Assembly (NCBI GenBank): GCA_018817515.1
Contig: JAHIUD010000048.1
Location: 1-63,240 of the forward strand
Direction: 5' to 3'
Length of the DNA: 63,240 bases
Origin: Pseudomonadota bacterium
GTDB taxonomy: Bacteria > Desulfobacterota > Desulfovibrionia > Desulfovibrionales > Desulfovibrionaceae
Shown: positions 10,144 to 21,157 of the stretch, piece after piece
Position numbering within the stretch: the first letter of the stretch is position 1
Layout: every line of letters starts with the position of its first letter
The notes under the pieces: model-generated
The model's database searches: none
Seen by the model: the letters and a program-made list of their open reading frames with translations, nothing else
What the model was told of the DNA's origin: nothing
Made by a program: the position numbers and the translations under genes

Positions 10144-10179
10144 CCCGTCCGCTGGACGCAGACTTGGGATTGATGACCT

Positions 10180-10230
10180 GAGGGGATGGAGTCCCCCTTG
10201 AACCGCGAAAGCCGCCGATGACTCCTACTG
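10180..10230 (+). ncRNA. Fluoride riboswitch (crcB motif)
   Basis: GGGGATGGAGTCCCCC forms the first conserved stem-loop. It is followed by TTGAACCGC-GAAA-GC and then CGCCGATGACTCCTAC, the conserved pseudoknot and ligand-binding core of the fluoride aptamer. The genes below it (fluC/crcB, DUF190, enolase) are known members of this regulon. An intrinsic terminator lies 30 nt downstream, so ON control by antitermination is expected. Confidence 0.95.
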
Positions 10231-10260
10231 CCCGACTCTGGCGGTAGAACTGTTTCTTCC

Positions 10261-13042: not shown

Positions 13043-13417
13043 ATGCATAAGGTTTTGATGCTGGCAGTGGCCGGGACGCTCGGTACGCTGGCCCGGTATT
13101 GGCTCTCGGGAGCGGTTTATGGCATCATGGGTCGTGAGTTCCCCTGGGGGACCGCTGCGGTGAACCTGCTGGGCTGCCTGCTCTTCGGACTGGTCTGGGT
13201 CATGGCTGACGAGCGGCAGCTCCTTGGCCCGGAGACCCGGCTTGTGATCCTGGTGGGCTTCATGGGGGCGTTCACCACGTTCTCCTCGCTGATCTTCGAG
13301 ACCGGTGAGCTGATGCGGGGGGCGCAGTGGGCCTATGCCGCCATCAACCTCGTGGGGCAGAACATCCTTGGCTTCGTGGCCTTCGCCATCGGGGCGAGCA
13401 TCGGACGGGCAGTTTGA
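13043..13417 (+). CDS. crcB: Fluoride ion channel FluC/CrcB
   Basis: A 124-residue protein with four transmembrane helices. The family signatures are present: GTLARYWLSG near the N-terminus, the conserved Asn in WGTAAVNLLGCLLFG, and GFMGAFTTFSSLIFET, which holds the Phe-box and Thr/Ser residues of the fluoride pore. Fluc channels work as antiparallel dimers that export fluoride. Its place under a fluoride riboswitch supports the call. It is the only Fluc gene here, so a homodimer is expected. Confidence 0.95.
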   Translation: MHKVLMLAVAGTLGTLARYWLSGAVYGIMGREFPWGTAAVNLLGCLLFGLVWVMADERQLLGPETRLVILVGFMGAFTTFSSLIFETGELMRGAQWAYAAINLVGQNILGFVAFAIGASIGRAV

Positions 13418-16599: not shown

Positions 16600-17015
16600 T
16601 GACTGCCCTAAATCGGATCCAGAATTTAATAAGGCCGTGAGTGCTATTGAGCTTCACCCGATTTTGGGTCCAGGCCTTAGGTGAGCCCCCCGGTGCCCAA
16701 TGGCAGCGCCCTCCGCCCAACGCAACGACAAACAGACGTTTTCCCTGAGCGGCCCCCTTTGGGGCCGCTTTTCTTTTCCATGGGCTCCGGCCCGCTGAAT
16801 TTTGGTGGTGCCAAGGCAGTTCCAAGACCTCACCGCGCCTGCCCAAGGGAGGGGCCTGAACCTTGCCACGTTCAAGAGCATTACTTCGGCGTCACCGAAT
16901 CAAAAACAAAAATTTTGTCAAGCCTCGAATAATATTAACCTTATCCTATTGACTTAAGGAAATGCGGTGTGGTTCGCTTAAAGCAAACGGACCCGTTTTA
17001 CACAAAGGAGGGACA
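16600..17015. other. Intergenic region with a second terminator
   Basis: It contains GCGGCCCC-TTT-GGGGCCGC followed by TTTTCTTTT (16749-16778). The same stem with a different 3-nt loop recurs at 21184 and 39462. No gene is supported between the terminators and the small ORF at 17016. AT-rich sequence at about 16905-16960 may hold a promoter. Confidence 0.6.
16749..16778 (+). terminator. GCGGCCCC/GGGGCCGC intrinsic terminator, copy 1
   Basis: An 8-bp perfect GC stem (16749-16756 with 16760-16767) is followed by a T-rich tail. It is one of three island terminators with the same stem. Confidence 0.8.
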
Positions 17016-17114
17016 GTGAAGCGACGCACGAGAACACTCAAAACCACTGCGACTGTGGCAATTGCCTCCATCGCAAAACGCAGGCTCGCAATGAGCAAAG
17101 GAAGATCAGCATGA
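17016..17114 (+). CDS. Small highly basic protein, 32 residues
   Basis: GTG start with AAAGGAGGG four bases upstream. The 33 codons encode a peptide with ten Lys/Arg and no acidic residue (VKRRTRTLKTTATV...AKRRLAMSKGRSA). The TGA overlaps the ATG of the next gene (ATGA), which implies translational coupling. It may be a real small basic protein or a leader peptide. The strong ribosome site and exact overlap favour translation. Confidence 0.55.
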   Translation: MKRRTRTLKTTATVAIASIAKRRLAMSKGRSA

Positions 17115-17320
17115 GATACGTTGCACTGCTCAAGTGTGCGAACGGCAAGCGCGTGCAGGCTATCTACCCGGCGCCGTCTCAGGCCAAGGCTCTCGAGGAG
17201 CTCGAATACCTGATGGGCTACAAGCAGGCCGAAGAAGGCGAGCTGCGGGACGAGAACGGCGAACTCGTGGGCTCGAAGCAGCGTGGCAGCCAGAAGGAAA
17301 TAACAGACACGCCCAGGTAG
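17111..17320 (+). CDS. Small unknown protein, 69 residues
   Basis: AAAGGA lies 7 nt before the ATG, and the start overlaps the stop of the basic peptide gene. The protein is soluble and charged, with a Lys/Arg-rich N-terminus (KCANGKRVQAIYP) and an acidic C-terminal half (AEEGELRDENGEL). No family is recognised. A strong intrinsic terminator follows at 17380. The next feature on its right is the convergent candidate large RNA. Confidence 0.6.
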   Translation: MRYVALLKCANGKRVQAIYPAPSQAKALEELEYLMGYKQAEEGELRDENGELVGSKQRGSQKEITDTPR

Positions 17321-17379
17321 TCTGCCACAGTTCCCCGGTCGCCGGGATGAACCTGCCGCAAAGTTGGCGGCGATATGAC

Positions 17380-17411
17380 AAAAGGCTCCCTTCGGGGAGC
17401 CTTTTCTTTTT
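17380..17411 (+). terminator. Strong intrinsic terminator
   Basis: AAAAGGCTCCC (17380-17390), TTCG tetraloop, GGGAGCCTTTT (17395-17405), then TCTTTTT. It closes the two-gene unit 17016-17320. Confidence 0.93.
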
Positions 17412-17454
17412 GGCCTGGTACGGCTTTTTATGCTTACCCGCGATAGCGATGTAA

Positions 17455-18580
17455 AGAGGGGCCTTGCGGCCCCTCTTCTAGATATCCAAGTCCAAACGTC
17501 ATCAGAATCACTGCTTAGACCCACCTGACTTCCTTCGCCCCGGCGCATTTCCTCGCCGCGTCTGTCCTTCGCTTACACCCTGGTAGCCAACCAGGAATCG
17601 CCTTGTGCTCTTTACACAAGGTCGGACGCAGACGTTGCCCTAAGGGGAGGTTACTACGAAGTCTCTGTGTTCTGCTCGTCATTGCTGACGAACAGATTAC
17701 ATCCCTGATTCGGCCAATACGGCACTTGCCTAGCCAGCATGCTGACCAGGCAGTACGCCGCCGTGAGTTCTTACCTCACATGTCGGTATCCATTTTAGGT
17801 GCCTTCTGTACCCAAGCGTTCACATCTGGGGCGATAATTCCCAGAATACGCTCCTTTCAACTTCCGAGGTGTCACAGCAAAGTGCTACTACGGTGCTATC
17901 TCTCGGGTTTTACGACGAAGGTTTCTCTCGTCACCATGATGGAGCGGGTTGGGCTTTCGCCCGTTAACGAAGCTGCTCTAACCGCATCGTGCTTATCTCC
18001 GGGGGCCACCCAGTTTCGCCACGCGCAGCCGCTTCGTCCCTTACGCGTCACGGCCCATGCTCTCATAGAGCGAAGGTACCGTCCCGCGACCCCAGTTTCT
18101 GGGGCTTACGACATTTGGCCTATCCAGGCGCACCACCTAAGACAGGCATGAACTCAACGGCACTTCACACCCCGTGATAGCCTTCGGGTAGCTTGTGCAG
18201 CTGGTTCCCAAACCGCGCAGGCGTGTTTCCATCGCACGCGGCTTTCCGGTACGAGCAAACTCGGAATCATCCGTGCTGGCTAGGCTGCGGATACTTGTCG
18301 GCTAACAAGTAGTTTGCTCTGGGTCATACAGCAGTTCTACGATTCTGATCCGTTCGGTGGAGACGAGCCTCCAAATGAGCGGCGCCATGACCACATTGCG
18401 GCGAGTCTTGTCCTCGCCTTGAACTCCGTGGTCATCGGCAGCGCCATTTATCCGGGACGCACTTCTCCTGGTCCTTCTCTTCCTCCTTTGTTCGGATTGT
18501 CGCATCCTTCTGCGGCACGTGTGTGACGTCCACTGCGGCCGTGTCGATGTGGTGGTCGACGTCGCGTGATGCGGGGTTGC
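17455..18580 (-). ncRNA. Candidate large structured non-coding RNA, family unknown
   Basis: About 1.1 kb with no credible ORF and a very high density of short perfect hairpins (plus-strand coordinates): 17579-17584/17590-17595, 17601-17607/17615-17621, 17672-17680/17687-17695, 17825-17830/17840-17845, 17951-17954/17959-17962, 18090-18095/18099-18104, 18293-18298/18305-18310, 18400-18405/18413-18418, 18543-18547/18556-18560. Strand: the stem at 17672-17695 has a mismatch as plus RNA but a G-U pair as minus RNA, and 17951-17962 gives a GAAA tetraloop only on minus. A TTGACT (18615-18610) with TATGCT (18590-18585) on minus, 19-bp spacing, could be its promoter. A GAGGGGCC-GCAA-GGCCCCTC hairpin at about 17455-17475 could end it. 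It does not match the rRNA, RNase P or tmRNA sequences I know. Size and style recall GOLLD- or ROOL-like RNAs, but no homology is claimed. Confidence 0.6.
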
Positions 18581-18842
18581 CTAGAGCATACACCTCGGCA
18601 CCATGCTGGAGTCAAGGCGGCGCAAGGCGAAAGATTCAAAGACAGTCCACCTCAAATATGAATTAAGATTGTCCTGCTCTGACAGCAGGTTCGGCTCAGA
18701 CGAATGTGCTAACCGTCACCTCATGGAAAATAGTTGAAAAATATTGTGCTGACCCTCTTGAAAAATTTGCTTTTGCCGCAAGCGCGATCGTAGCCTTGTT
18801 GGGAATCGGGCCGCGCCCGCAACCATCAACAGGAGTAAAGTC

Positions 18843-19061
18843 ATGGGAATTATACGCAAAACTGAACGGTTGGAGAAGCAGGTCAACGTCAAGGTCAGCG
18901 AAGAGGTTTACAAGCGTTATCGCGCCGTGCGCGAGGCGTGCACGGCGAAAGGTTGGGAGTATAGCTTGCAGCCGGAGTTCACGGAATGGCTGAACGGCCA
19001 ACTCGTAAAGGCCGAGAAGGATCTAGCGAAGAAGACGTCGGCGACAGAAGCCGCCGAGTAG
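18843..19061 (+). CDS. Small ribbon-helix-helix-like protein
   Basis: A 72-residue charged protein with ACAGGAG before the ATG. The segment KQVNVKVSEEVYKRYRAVREACTAKG has the beta-strand plus two-helix pattern of ribbon-helix-helix DNA-binding proteins, but the match is weak. It starts a compact plus-strand unit with the genes at 19065 (3 bp gap) and 20136. This unit diverges from the candidate large RNA, whose possible promoter lies about 230 bp upstream. It could regulate the unit or the RNA; this is inference. Confidence 0.6.
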   Translation: MGIIRKTERLEKQVNVKVSEEVYKRYRAVREACTAKGWEYSLQPEFTEWLNGQLVKAEKDLAKKTSATEAAE

Positions 19062-19064
19062 AGG

Positions 19065-20117
19065 ATGGGCATTAGCAAGACATATCAGCCGGGGCCGGGG
19101 GACGTTGCGCTCGTGAGGAGGGCGCAGCGTTCCCTGGCTCTAGCCGGGCGGCACAAGGATCTGATGAAGTATATGGAGCGGGATAGTTTCCAGAATGTAG
19201 CCGCCGACCTTGTCCAGCACTACATGCCCCGCTCGCATTCCAGGCAGCTCGAGATAGCCGAGGTGTTCCGCGAGTTGTTCTCAACGTGGCTTGTCCTGGC
19301 GCCCATCGCCAATCGGGTCCAGGGCTACTGGCGGCCCTGGTGGTGTCCAGGTGTAGTGATGAGTTGGCTGCGCGTCGAGATCAACCGCTTCCAGCGTACC
19401 TGTCTGGGCCGCCTCTCGTTAGACTGGGCGACGGCACAGGTTGCACCGGGTGCTGCGGCAGCCCAAATTACGGACGATGCGTTCCTCGCACATGCGGAGG
19501 CTCTGCTCGGCAACGCGTGGGGCGATACCCTACGCGCCAACTTCACCCGCTACGTTTTCGGTGGACTGGTCTGGCGCGCCGTAGCCAAACAGGCGCTTGC
19601 AGTAGCCCGCGAGCACCAGGCTGGATTGATGTGGAATGAGAATGAGCTTTGGTTGTTGGCGCGGAGGCCATTTGAGACAAAGGGCGTAGCCTGGGTCGAC
19701 CTGCGTGGGGAAGCGGTGGATATCCTGGCGTGGTCAGTCAGGGTAGCCGACGACAATCTTCAGGCGCGGATGAGCGAATCCTCGGTCAGACGGCTCAAGG
19801 ATAGCGTCAGAGCAGCCCTGGCCACGGATGCTTCGGCTGAGCACAAGCTGCGCCAGATCAACAACCCCACAAAGTCCTTCTACCACTGGGCACGCTACGC
19901 CTTCGATGCCAAGCAGCAAGCCGCCGAGCTGGAAGCGTGGATATGGCGGCGGGTCAGCCGACACATCGTGCAAAACTCCCCAAAGCTACTGGCCGCGTAC
20001 TTCAACCTGAAGACGGCAACGTGGGATACGCAGCTTCACTTTGGGCGTGTGTCGTATCTTCTGGATAGGGACGTGACGGACGAGGACTGGCTGAACATAT
20101 GGAATCCGAGACGGTAG
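19065..20117 (+). CDS. Unknown 350-residue protein
   Basis: A soluble protein, rich in Trp, Arg and Ala helices, without recognised motifs. It starts 3 bp after the RHH-like gene, with no strong ribosome site of its own apart from GAGTAGAGG just upstream. Many regularly spaced basic and aromatic residues (YWRPWWCPG, EINRFQRTC, KSFYHWARYAFDAK, EAWIWRRVSRHI) suggest an all-helical fold that could bind nucleic acid. No catalytic signature was found. It is part of the 18843-20570 unit next to the candidate large RNA. Confidence 0.6.
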   Translation: MGISKTYQPGPGDVALVRRAQRSLALAGRHKDLMKYMERDSFQNVAADLVQHYMPRSHSRQLEIAEVFRELFSTWLVLAPIANRVQGYWRPWWCPGVVMSWLRVEINRFQRTCLGRLSLDWATAQVAPGAAAAQITDDAFLAHAEALLGNAWGDTLRANFTRYVFGGLVWRAVAKQALAVAREHQAGLMWNENELWLLARRPFETKGVAWVDLRGEAVDILAWSVRVADDNLQARMSESSVRRLKDSVRAALATDASAEHKLRQINNPTKSFYHWARYAFDAKQQAAELEAWIWRRVSRHIVQNSPKLLAAYFNLKTATWDTQLHFGRVSYLLDRDVTDEDWLNIWNPRR

Positions 20118-20135: not shown

Positions 20136-20570
20136 ATGAGCATCATCTACGACAAAGACGGCTTCAAACTATCCATCACCGCAGGCGTGGCGGACGAGGC
20201 CAAGGGCAAGAGACGCTGGACGCAGGTAGAAGCGAGCTACCTTGGGTATTCATGCTCGAACCTTGAGCCGCTGGCCGGCCTGAAGGCAGTGTTCGACTGC
20301 TTCCTGCGCGGGCGTCTTCCAAGCGGCGAGCCCGGCATCGTCCTGGGAACAGAGCACGATGGACTACGCGTGACCGTGCGGCAGAAGGACAAGGTTCAGT
20401 CTCTTCAAGTTTGCCGACTGGTGCAGGGGAACACCGAGGTGGCGCGGTACCTGTCTTTCTTCGAAGCCTCGCGGCTCACCATTGCCGTGTCAAAAGCGCT
20501 TCAGGCGCTTGCGCCAAAGACGATCTGGGGAGCGGACACTTCTCTCGCGCCGCCACAAACGAAGGGGTAA
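20136..20570 (+). CDS. Unknown 144-residue protein
   Basis: The ATG is preceded by GGGGAGGGAGG, a very strong ribosome site, 18 bp after the previous stop. The protein is soluble with alternating beta-type segments (FKLSITAGVAD, LRVTVRQKDKVQSLQVCRLV) and a helical C-terminus. No family recognised. It ends the unit 18843-20570. No terminator is obvious downstream. Confidence 0.6.
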   Translation: MSIIYDKDGFKLSITAGVADEAKGKRRWTQVEASYLGYSCSNLEPLAGLKAVFDCFLRGRLPSGEPGIVLGTEHDGLRVTVRQKDKVQSLQVCRLVQGNTEVARYLSFFEASRLTIAVSKALQALAPKTIWGADTSLAPPQTKG

Positions 20571-20803
20571 GCGCGGTATTCGCGTGCCATCTCGCTTGAC
20601 AACATGGGACATTAATGGTCGTTTTTGGCTGCTATATCAATATGTTGTTGACAAAGATCCGAGGCAGCGGTACGGTAAGCCAATAGTAGAGGCTTTCACG
20701 GCAGGCACTACCTTAAGGCTGTTTCAATAACTGTAACATGGTCCGGCGGCTACAGCTCAGCTACTGGACGGAATGCACCATAACACCCGAGAGGGGATAT
20801 CAT

Positions 20804-21157
20804 ATGGCTAAGAAAAAAGAAGTCGATCTCAACGAGGCAGTGGCTGTCTTCCAGCAAGATCGCTATGTCCCGATTCCGGAGGCAGCATCAAAAATCCGAG
20901 TCTCGGAACGAGGCCTCTGGGGATGGCGTGAGCGGTGCGCGTGGGATCCTGAGGCCGCCAGCCTATTCGCGAAGTATGGCAAGTTTGTGTTTTTTGATCT
21001 CGATGCCTGGGCAAGACTGTTGGCCAAAAAACAACAAGAAGGCGTCGAAGCCGCGAAAGCGTTCCAGAACAGCTTCCGCGCCATCATTGTTATGCAGACC
21101 GCAGCTGCCGCCGCAATCATTGCCACGTTGCTTTATGGTGGCGGTGGCGGATTCTAG
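20804..21157 (+). CDS. HTH-like protein with C-terminal hydrophobic helix and Gly tail
   Basis: A 117-residue protein. ATG 20804 has GAGGGG upstream, so the longer frame from 20738 is not used. The segment RYVPIPEAASKIRVSERGLW looks like the helix-turn-helix of excisionase or AlpA-like proteins (about residues 17-37), followed by FVFFDLDAWARLLAKKQQEG. The end is a hydrophobic helix (AIIVMQTAAAAAIIATLLY) and a GGGGGF tail, odd for a DNA-binding protein and perhaps a tail anchor. Its 3' end and terminator region are duplicated as a decayed copy at 39340-39729. The upstream 230 bp hold possible TTGACA boxes only. Confidence 0.62.
   Translation: MAKKKEVDLNEAVAVFQQDRYVPIPEAASKIRVSERGLWGWRERCAWDPEAASLFAKYGKFVFFDLDAWARLLAKKQQEGVEAAKAFQNSFRAIIVMQTAAAAAIIATLLYGGGGGF

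Follow-up and report, generated by a model that had tools for sequence, protein, structure and literature searches.

A conserved RNA with circularly permuted group II intron architecture and a linked gene for a putative maturase-like protein in Desulfovibrionaceae

What kind of RNA occupies about a kilobase of a genomic island in which no convincing gene can be recognized? The question is raised by a locus in the window, that is, the whole 63,240-nucleotide stretch of Desulfovibrionaceae DNA that was analyzed. A sequence-only reading had placed a large structured RNA there, on the minus strand, and had called it a member of an unknown family that resembles ornate RNAs such as GOLLD or ROOL. 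The RNA and its strand were borne out by homologues and covariation: a conserved structured element of about 1.1 kb lies on the minus strand at 17453–18615. The family was not unknown. An Rfam scan of the stretch gave one family, Intron_gpII (RF00029), which covers domains 5 and 6 (D5–D6) of group II introns, on the minus strand only, where its score of 40.1 bits just reaches the gathering threshold of 40. Within 16900–19100, the minus strand yielded no further family up to E = 5, which speaks against a likeness to GOLLD or ROOL, and the D5–D6 match stands upstream of GUGCG and domain 1, as in the published layout of circularly permuted (CP) group II introns. The locus probably encodes a new branch of CP group II ribozymes together with a dedicated, divergently encoded maturase of 350 aa that is dead as a reverse transcriptase (RT), with catalysis, circle formation, binding and the maturase role as predictions.

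A credible gene within the RNA also seems to be absent. The longest overlapping open reading frame has 182 aa (17603–18151, plus strand), and no frame for an intron-encoded protein (IEP) is evident inside the RNA. In the genus alignment, the RNA copies vary within the region of this 182-aa frame by indels that are not divisible by three (e.g., 10 nt), so the overlapping frames are judged to be due to chance.

A minus-strand RNA with permuted group II domains

On the minus strand, the order of the parts is leader–P1–P2–D5–D6–linker–D1–D2–D3. Ahead of these parts lies a promoter-like motif (18585–18615) composed of TTGACT (18615–18610), a 19-bp spacer and TATGCT (18590–18585). This −35/−10 pair, which had already been noticed by the sequence-only reading, lies in a CTTG...GTATG block that all full-length copies of the genus retain, but a consensus scan that admits spacers of 16–18 bp only did not list it. 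The 5′ leader domain (18320–18578) is kept in the genus copies and is not evident in the copy of genome G063. It is followed by a P1-like hairpin (18293–18310) with the loop UAGCC, which is complementary to a UGGCUA loop on a sub-hairpin of D3, and by a P2-like hairpin (18270–18291, loop CCUAGCC) that was recognized in the alignments.

Domain 5 (18210–18244), identified through RF00029 and covariation, carries the AGC triad, five base pairs, a CU bulge (18220–18219) and a GAAA loop. The aligned copies share this plan, and the bulge is CU or CC in 13 of 13 alignment rows. In domain 6 (18148–18207), the alignment and covariation point to a bulged branch-point A at 18154, which is base seven when counted back from the AU at the 3′ end; it occupies alignment column 94 in all 13 rows and is flanked by pairs that partly covary. 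The 3′ splice site follows CAU at 18148. The next 14 nt (18134–18147), between the two splice-site motifs, form the linker or "exon", which is predicted to be excised as a circle. Linkers have 14–16 nt in the genus copies and 17–23 nt in distant ones; the motif AU precedes them, with AC in L096. Domain 1 (17704–18133), assigned by alignment and covariation, opens with the 5′ splice site GUGCG (18133–18129) in the context GUGCG-N-Y-UGGAUA. Since D6 stands before D1, the splice sites are reversed and flank only the 14-nt linker.

The 3′ part consists of the domain 2 hairpin (17671–17696), in which both partners have changed in 9 of 11 pairs, the purine-rich J2/3 segment ACACAGA (17664–17670), seen in the alignment, and domain 3 (17527–17663). 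Domain 3 is composed of covarying helices and has a basal loop-E-like AGUA/GAA motif assigned by eye; its sub-hairpin at 17598–17577 (loop UUGGCU) belongs to the covarying-helix set of D1–D3. A short D4-like 3′ stem (17498–17526) may follow, as two weak helices suggest. The final GC hairpin with a GNRA-type loop that had been proposed as the end of the RNA is present at 17477–17453, with a GCAA loop; it recurs in the aligned genus copies, and 4 of its 11 pairs are compensated. It resembles a terminator, but its T-run is too short for a terminator scan of the minus strand. On the plus strand, near the 3′ end of the RNA gene, a strong terminator-like hairpin with a T-run (17380–17405) follows an orphan small island frame of 69 aa (17111–17320).

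Covariation was found in both halves of the RNA. The D5–D6 alignment has 13 copies, of which 11 are distinct, and 34 pairs were assessed in it; 96.8% of the cells are paired, and 15 of the 34 pairs are changed on both sides. None of 500 shuffles was as high, and slid partners were 32–46% paired with only 1–4 such pairs. In D5 alone, 6 of 14 pairs show changes on both sides, with 100% of the cells paired. For D1–D3, 185 pairs were examined in 13 copies, including three distant ones; 93.0% of the cells are paired, and in 118 pairs both partners have changed, whereas shuffles averaged 59.1 and none of 500 was as high. The slid control (33–40% paired, 28–47 pairs) somewhat favours the D1–D3 structure because that structure was derived with RNAalifold from the alignment on which it was tested. 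The rows of both alignments were chosen by a pattern that required GTGCG and, for the D5–D6 rows, also AGCCG, so the invariance of these motifs in those rows is no evidence; the blastn-found alignment shows them independently. GUGCG is present in 14 of the 15 blastn-found genus copies, the exception being truncated, and also in L096, L079 and L111.

As to contacts at a longer distance, the P1 loop is complementary to a 3′ segment, the hairpin is so nearly invariant in the genus that its covariation is uninformative, and the pairing is not seen in G063. A P2–D2 kissing interaction, for which L001 offers good complementarity, was dropped since the hairpins of L012, L096 and L079 have no matching loop. 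The best candidates for EBS1 in an EBS1–IBS1 pairing show no covariation. The self-complementarity of the linker is modest, its stem sum being reached by 26 of 2000 shuffles.

The own genome contains a second copy of the RNA, with 75% identity over window positions 17454–18685 (query positions 15–1246). A blastn search of 59 genomes gave matches in nine, namely 8 of the 15 genomes of the same genus (the own genome included) and G036, whose match of 28 bases in another family is left out of the counts. In total, 15 RNA elements were counted in the eight genus genomes. One element, L018 (G008:C21:4071-4734), is truncated and comprises only D1 and what follows it, has neither D5, D6, splice sites nor a partner gene, and sits 3.6 kb from a full copy; it could be a product of decay or a part that acts in trans with the intact copy. 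A covariance model of the D5–D6–linker–5′ splice site region built from this genus alone (R1) was used to scan 348 genomes of the order and gave E ≤ 0.01 in 29 of them. The members counted are the 16 places with at least 85 bits in 10 genomes: 14 places in the genus and those in G222 and G063. In 19 genomes of the order, matches scored 19–44 bits; these were interpreted as D5–D6 of ordinary group II introns and not counted, and those in G077, G058, G052 and G047 lie directly behind ordinary maturase genes with the maturase domain GIIM. Two further members were reached via the protein described below, L096 (121.4 bits) and G374 (71.1 bits). Relatives of the RNA are thus known from eight of 15 genus genomes, two more genomes of the order and two more distant ones. 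A blastn search of the RNA stretch against phages and plasmids returned zero matches, the exact RNA pattern was absent from the viral contigs searched, and comparison of the flanks with relatives revealed no clear empty site.

The divergent gene beside the RNA

Upstream of the RNA, on the plus strand, a divergent operon begins with a 72-aa frame (18843–19061), possibly of ribbon-helix-helix (RHH) type according to sub-threshold family matches; starts similar to its own were seen by eye upstream of several other copies. The second gene (19065–20117), which the sequence-only reading of this RNA leaves unmentioned and which proved the most telling neighbour, encodes the 350-aa partner protein, singled out by its linkage to the RNA, by GIIM/maturase-like similarity at residues 241–301 and by RT-like models. 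The third frame (20136–20570, 144 aa) gave no match in family searches and has a similar frame in G222 (L080 2150–2602). Another plus-strand frame of 139 aa (20738–21157), with weak excisionase-like similarity (phrog_66, E = 0.078) and a hydrophobic tail, also has a similar frame in G222.

The divergent 350-aa gene is found in exactly the same eight genus genomes as the RNA, in 14 places, and 14 of the 15 genus RNA elements adjoin it, the exception being the truncated L018. None of the 14 partner frames contains an internal stop, where two of them, in G002, match only from residue 67–68 on. A protein profile search found matches in 11 of 348 genomes of the class and in 3 of 395 of the phylum. 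A protein search of a public contig collection yielded 13 loci, mostly in the same genomes again, and all 13 contain the RNA when scanned with R1. When distinct testable protein loci are counted (14 in the genus, G222, G063, L096 and G374; a G101 protein fragment at a contig end was left out), the RNA lies beside the gene in 18 of 18. The partners in G063 and G374 share no more than 28% and 24% identity, respectively, with the window protein and yet are still linked to the RNA, which indicates that the pair has long been kept together. The partner protein has zero matches in plasmids and none in viral contigs, where it was sought by two peptide patterns only.

The similarity of the partner to GIIM and RT sequences is weak but repeated. 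In Pfam searches of 12 partners (set A1), GIIM was the most frequent match (6/12), though even its best match (E = 0.0045) fell short of the curated cut-off; DUF5646 was matched in 4 of 12, with a slightly lower best E (0.0035). GIIM matched none of the seven proteins of a more diverse set (A8), nor the window's own protein. A GIIM search of the own genome gave a single match of 20.3 bits (cut-off 23), which falls on the partner protein next to RNA copy 2, so no ordinary group II maturase is evident in this 95%-complete genome. Profile–profile comparison with hhalign against 12 real GIIM domains gave P = 0.00087 for A1 and 0.00019 for A8; column-shuffled GIIM scored at most 18.9 against 31.7 for the real profile, with none of 200 as high. 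Against 11 full-length group II RTs, P was 1e-4, and the alignment spans the palm into the thumb (shuffles at most 27.2 vs. 40.9, 0/100 as high). The hhalign probabilities for the partner against GIIM and RT range from 14 to 58%.

Template-free modelling was carried out twice, with either the window protein or L096 as the first sequence, and the two models show the same elements, including three helices at 238–302, where GIIM matches. They are not independent because their alignments overlap. The models have a pTM of 0.59–0.60, a mean pLDDT of 64–66, a poor N-terminus and a TM of about 0.4 to RTs. With the window-first model, Foldseek lists 12 PDB chains at E ≤ 0.001, all of them RTs and 10 of them group II or G2L4; with the L096-first model, it lists 11, again all RTs, the top five being group II intron proteins. 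The best E for the two models is 2.1e-5. VIA-align reaches Z values of up to 11.9, where a Z below about 13 can mean a common arrangement in helical models; among the chains listed are group II RTs, DRT9, retrons, telomerase and spliceosome chains. In a viral structure library, three matches had E ≤ 0.001, two nameless and one a group II RT/maturase, with RNA polymerases lower. The YxDD motif is not conserved across 15 partner members, and FYDD occurs in G374 alone, in another alignment column. While hhalign places YADD on the Y[VA][FL]G of the partner, the strand order in the models would place it on W-x-E-x (residues 190–193); under either placement, the second aspartate is not conserved. 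The partner is probably a dedicated, RT-dead maturase for the permuted ribozyme, a relative of group II intron RTs that would have kept an RT-like fold and a maturase/thumb domain with no conserved YxDD.

Prp8, the core protein of the spliceosome, is a relative of group II RTs. It likewise places an RT-like fold beside a group II-like RNA, but it is very much larger, and the comparison is an analogy only. The Prp8 chain 4i43_B appears in the Foldseek list for the window-first model with E = 0.059, and spliceosome chains reach a VIA-align Z of about 8 against the partner model.

Place among the circularly permuted group II RNAs

CP group II introns ("T-large") were published in 2021 by Roth et al. 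(PMC8637638). There, the class is described with D5–D6 ahead of D1–D3, reversed internal splice sites, a linker of 15–86 nt, the consensus 5′ splice site GGGCG and a D5 with AGC, five pairs and a 2-nt UN bulge. CP RNAs were shown there to make branched RNA and RNA circles, IEP open reading frames are stated never to have been seen in or near them, and the protein AcpG, encoded on the CP plasmid pTT8 on the strand opposite to an RNA that lies upstream of it, is stated to have no known relatives.

Compared with the class as presented in PMC8637638, the RNA studied here shares the order D5–D6–linker–D1–D2–D3, the reversed splice sites and a divergent protein gene. A short, partly self-complementary linker, 5′ hairpins of which one loop could pair with a loop near the 3′ end (here in the genus copies, not seen in G063), the bulged branch-point A in D6 and the absence of an IEP frame inside are also common to both. 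The AGC triad and the spacing of D5 agree, whereas the bulge is CY here and UN in the class, and the 5′ splice site is GUGCG instead of GGGCG. The RNA measures about 1.1 kb vs. about 0.9 kb, and its genus copies carry a leader; the linker in the window is, at 14 nt, one below the published range; the P2–D2 loop–loop pseudoknot of the class is unsupported here (L012, L096, L079); and the partner gene differs from AcpG. The RNA is called a new branch because GUGCG, the D5 bulge, the leader and the unsupported P2–D2 contact differ while the features that define the order are present. Canonical bacterial group II introns (RF00029) share D5/D6, the GUGCG...AU ends and J2/3 with it, and canonical group II RT/maturases (GIIM, PF08388) share the GIIM-like region and RT-like models with the partner; in contrast to them, the order here is permuted and the protein is encoded outside, divergently and without a conserved YxDD. 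The CP group II architecture is already known, and a new point here is the linkage of the neighbouring gene and its maturase-like product. The literature search, within the parts of the sources available, found no paper that joins CP group II RNAs with Desulfovibrio, and none with a maturase for CP RNAs was noticed. Desulfovibrio members may be among the approximately 290 CP sequences published in the supplement of PMC8637638.

When R1 was run on 77.7 kb comprising 12 AcpG plasmid pieces, the best two matches were in T. aquaticus pTA14 (E = 0.0054) and at D5 of pTT8 (E = 0.022). Both lie upstream of AcpG and run opposite to it, which is the arrangement published for the pTT8 RNA (PMC8637638), and nothing convincing was found in the other 10 of the 12 pieces. 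A third match, in pPNAP05 (E = 0.031), breaks many pairs and was taken as chance. An nhmmer DNA profile of the RNA gave no alignment with pTT8 or pPNAP05 (first 50,000 bases), and Rfam also flags no group II D5 on these same pieces.

The settings of the two protein genes are alike. AcpG (TTHC007) is encoded beside a CP RNA, divergently, as the partner gene is here; it is preceded by an RHH/CopG gene in two Thermus plasmids, as the partner is by the 72-aa frame; and it has 226–388 aa in a set of 12, against 350 aa for the partner. The AcpG genes of pTT8 and pPNAP05 were assigned by size, position and the A2–A3 profile comparison and not by locus tag, a comparison that also served as the positive control for hhalign (97%). 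Three hhalign runs aligned the partner with AcpG in the same register (P 0.04–0.22), and A8 against AcpG scored 20.6, above 200 of 200 column shuffles (maximum 19.8). An equation of the partner with AcpG was considered and not adopted, profile comparisons being not significant (P 0.04–0.51). The profile similarity of AcpG to GIIM and to RT is not significant either. An AcpG search of the own genome, run without a control, gave no match, and no AcpG relatives were found in the viral contigs searched. Relatives of AcpG were observed on E. coli plasmids of about 30 kb (L038 8010–8819) and on small plasmids such as pMtBL.

Alternative readings and a possible ribonucleoprotein

Several other explanations of the locus have to be weighed. 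The RNA might be a member of the published CP class as it stands, next to an unrelated gene whose RT-like similarity is a modelling artefact. The domain order and the reversed splice sites do match the published description (PMC8637638), and the protein evidence is sub-threshold; against this, two models with different first sequences and the profile–profile tests agree on one family, and the gene adjoins the RNA in all 18 testable loci. This reading is considered unlikely, though it deserves to be kept in mind. Much less probable is the view that an ordinary group II intron has decayed or been rearranged here and is inactive. Chance could give a permutation, and one truncated copy (L018 in G008) exists, but pairs changed on both sides (118 of 185 and 15 of 34), 14 of 15 genus copies that preserve the triad, the branch-point A and both splice-site motifs, and 14 of 14 partner frames without internal stops (for the two in G002, from residue 67–68 only) speak against it.

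The original idea of a new ornate RNA of the GOLLD/ROOL type, now with a D5-like hairpin arisen by chance, agrees with the size and the island setting and with an Rfam score barely at gathering (40.1 vs. 40). It is nevertheless highly improbable in view of the covarying D5 geometry (AGC, 5 bp, 2-nt bulge, GNRA loop), the bulged A of D6, GUGCG and J2/3; moreover, R1 also finds D5–D6 behind the ordinary maturase genes in G077, G058, G052 and G047, and RF00029 is the sole Rfam match on the minus strand up to E = 5. About 440 conserved nucleotides upstream of D5 could suggest a canonical intron with D1–D4 in the usual place, yet the upstream stretch is not evidently conserved in G063, where GUGCG and D1–D3 follow D6 as well, and a canonical order can scarcely be believed.

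With a CP group II ribozyme and its maturase-like partner as the preferred reading, the following reaction may be proposed because of the RNA anatomy and the reactions shown for CP RNAs (PMC8637638). The branch-point A (18154) would attack the downstream GUGCG junction. In a second step, the 3′ junction that lies upstream, after 18148, would be attacked by the freed end of the linker. The linker would leave as a circle of 14 nt, and the remainder would be a large branched RNA in the shape of a T. The 350-aa protein may help the permuted RNA to fold and react and may hold its active form, much as Prp8 does in the spliceosome. It is an even question whether RNA and protein form a dedicated ribonucleoprotein (RNP) with an RT-dead, Prp8-like maturase, of which AcpG would be a more degenerate relative. 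If this is true, CP ribozymes would be a lineage without retrotransposition that has kept the RNA–protein splicing machine of introns for another use. The role in the cell can only be guessed at: a trans-acting RNP that serves its carrier island. Two tyrosine integrases observed beside the G063 locus fit a function for the island.

CP group II ribozymes make RNA circles. A linked protein resembling an RT-dead maturase, found at 18 of 18 loci, offers a direct route to testing whether these ribozymes work in RNP form. It also provides a parallel in bacteria for the way in which reverse transcription may have been lost from Prp8. The CP layout is also documented here in Thermodesulfobacteriota, with a linker of only 14 nt; this phylum may have been counted under Proteobacteria in PMC8637638. 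Elsewhere in the window, a fluoride riboswitch (RF01734, 48.8 bits) was detected on the plus strand at 10173–10234. The frame at 13043–13417 looks crcB-like.
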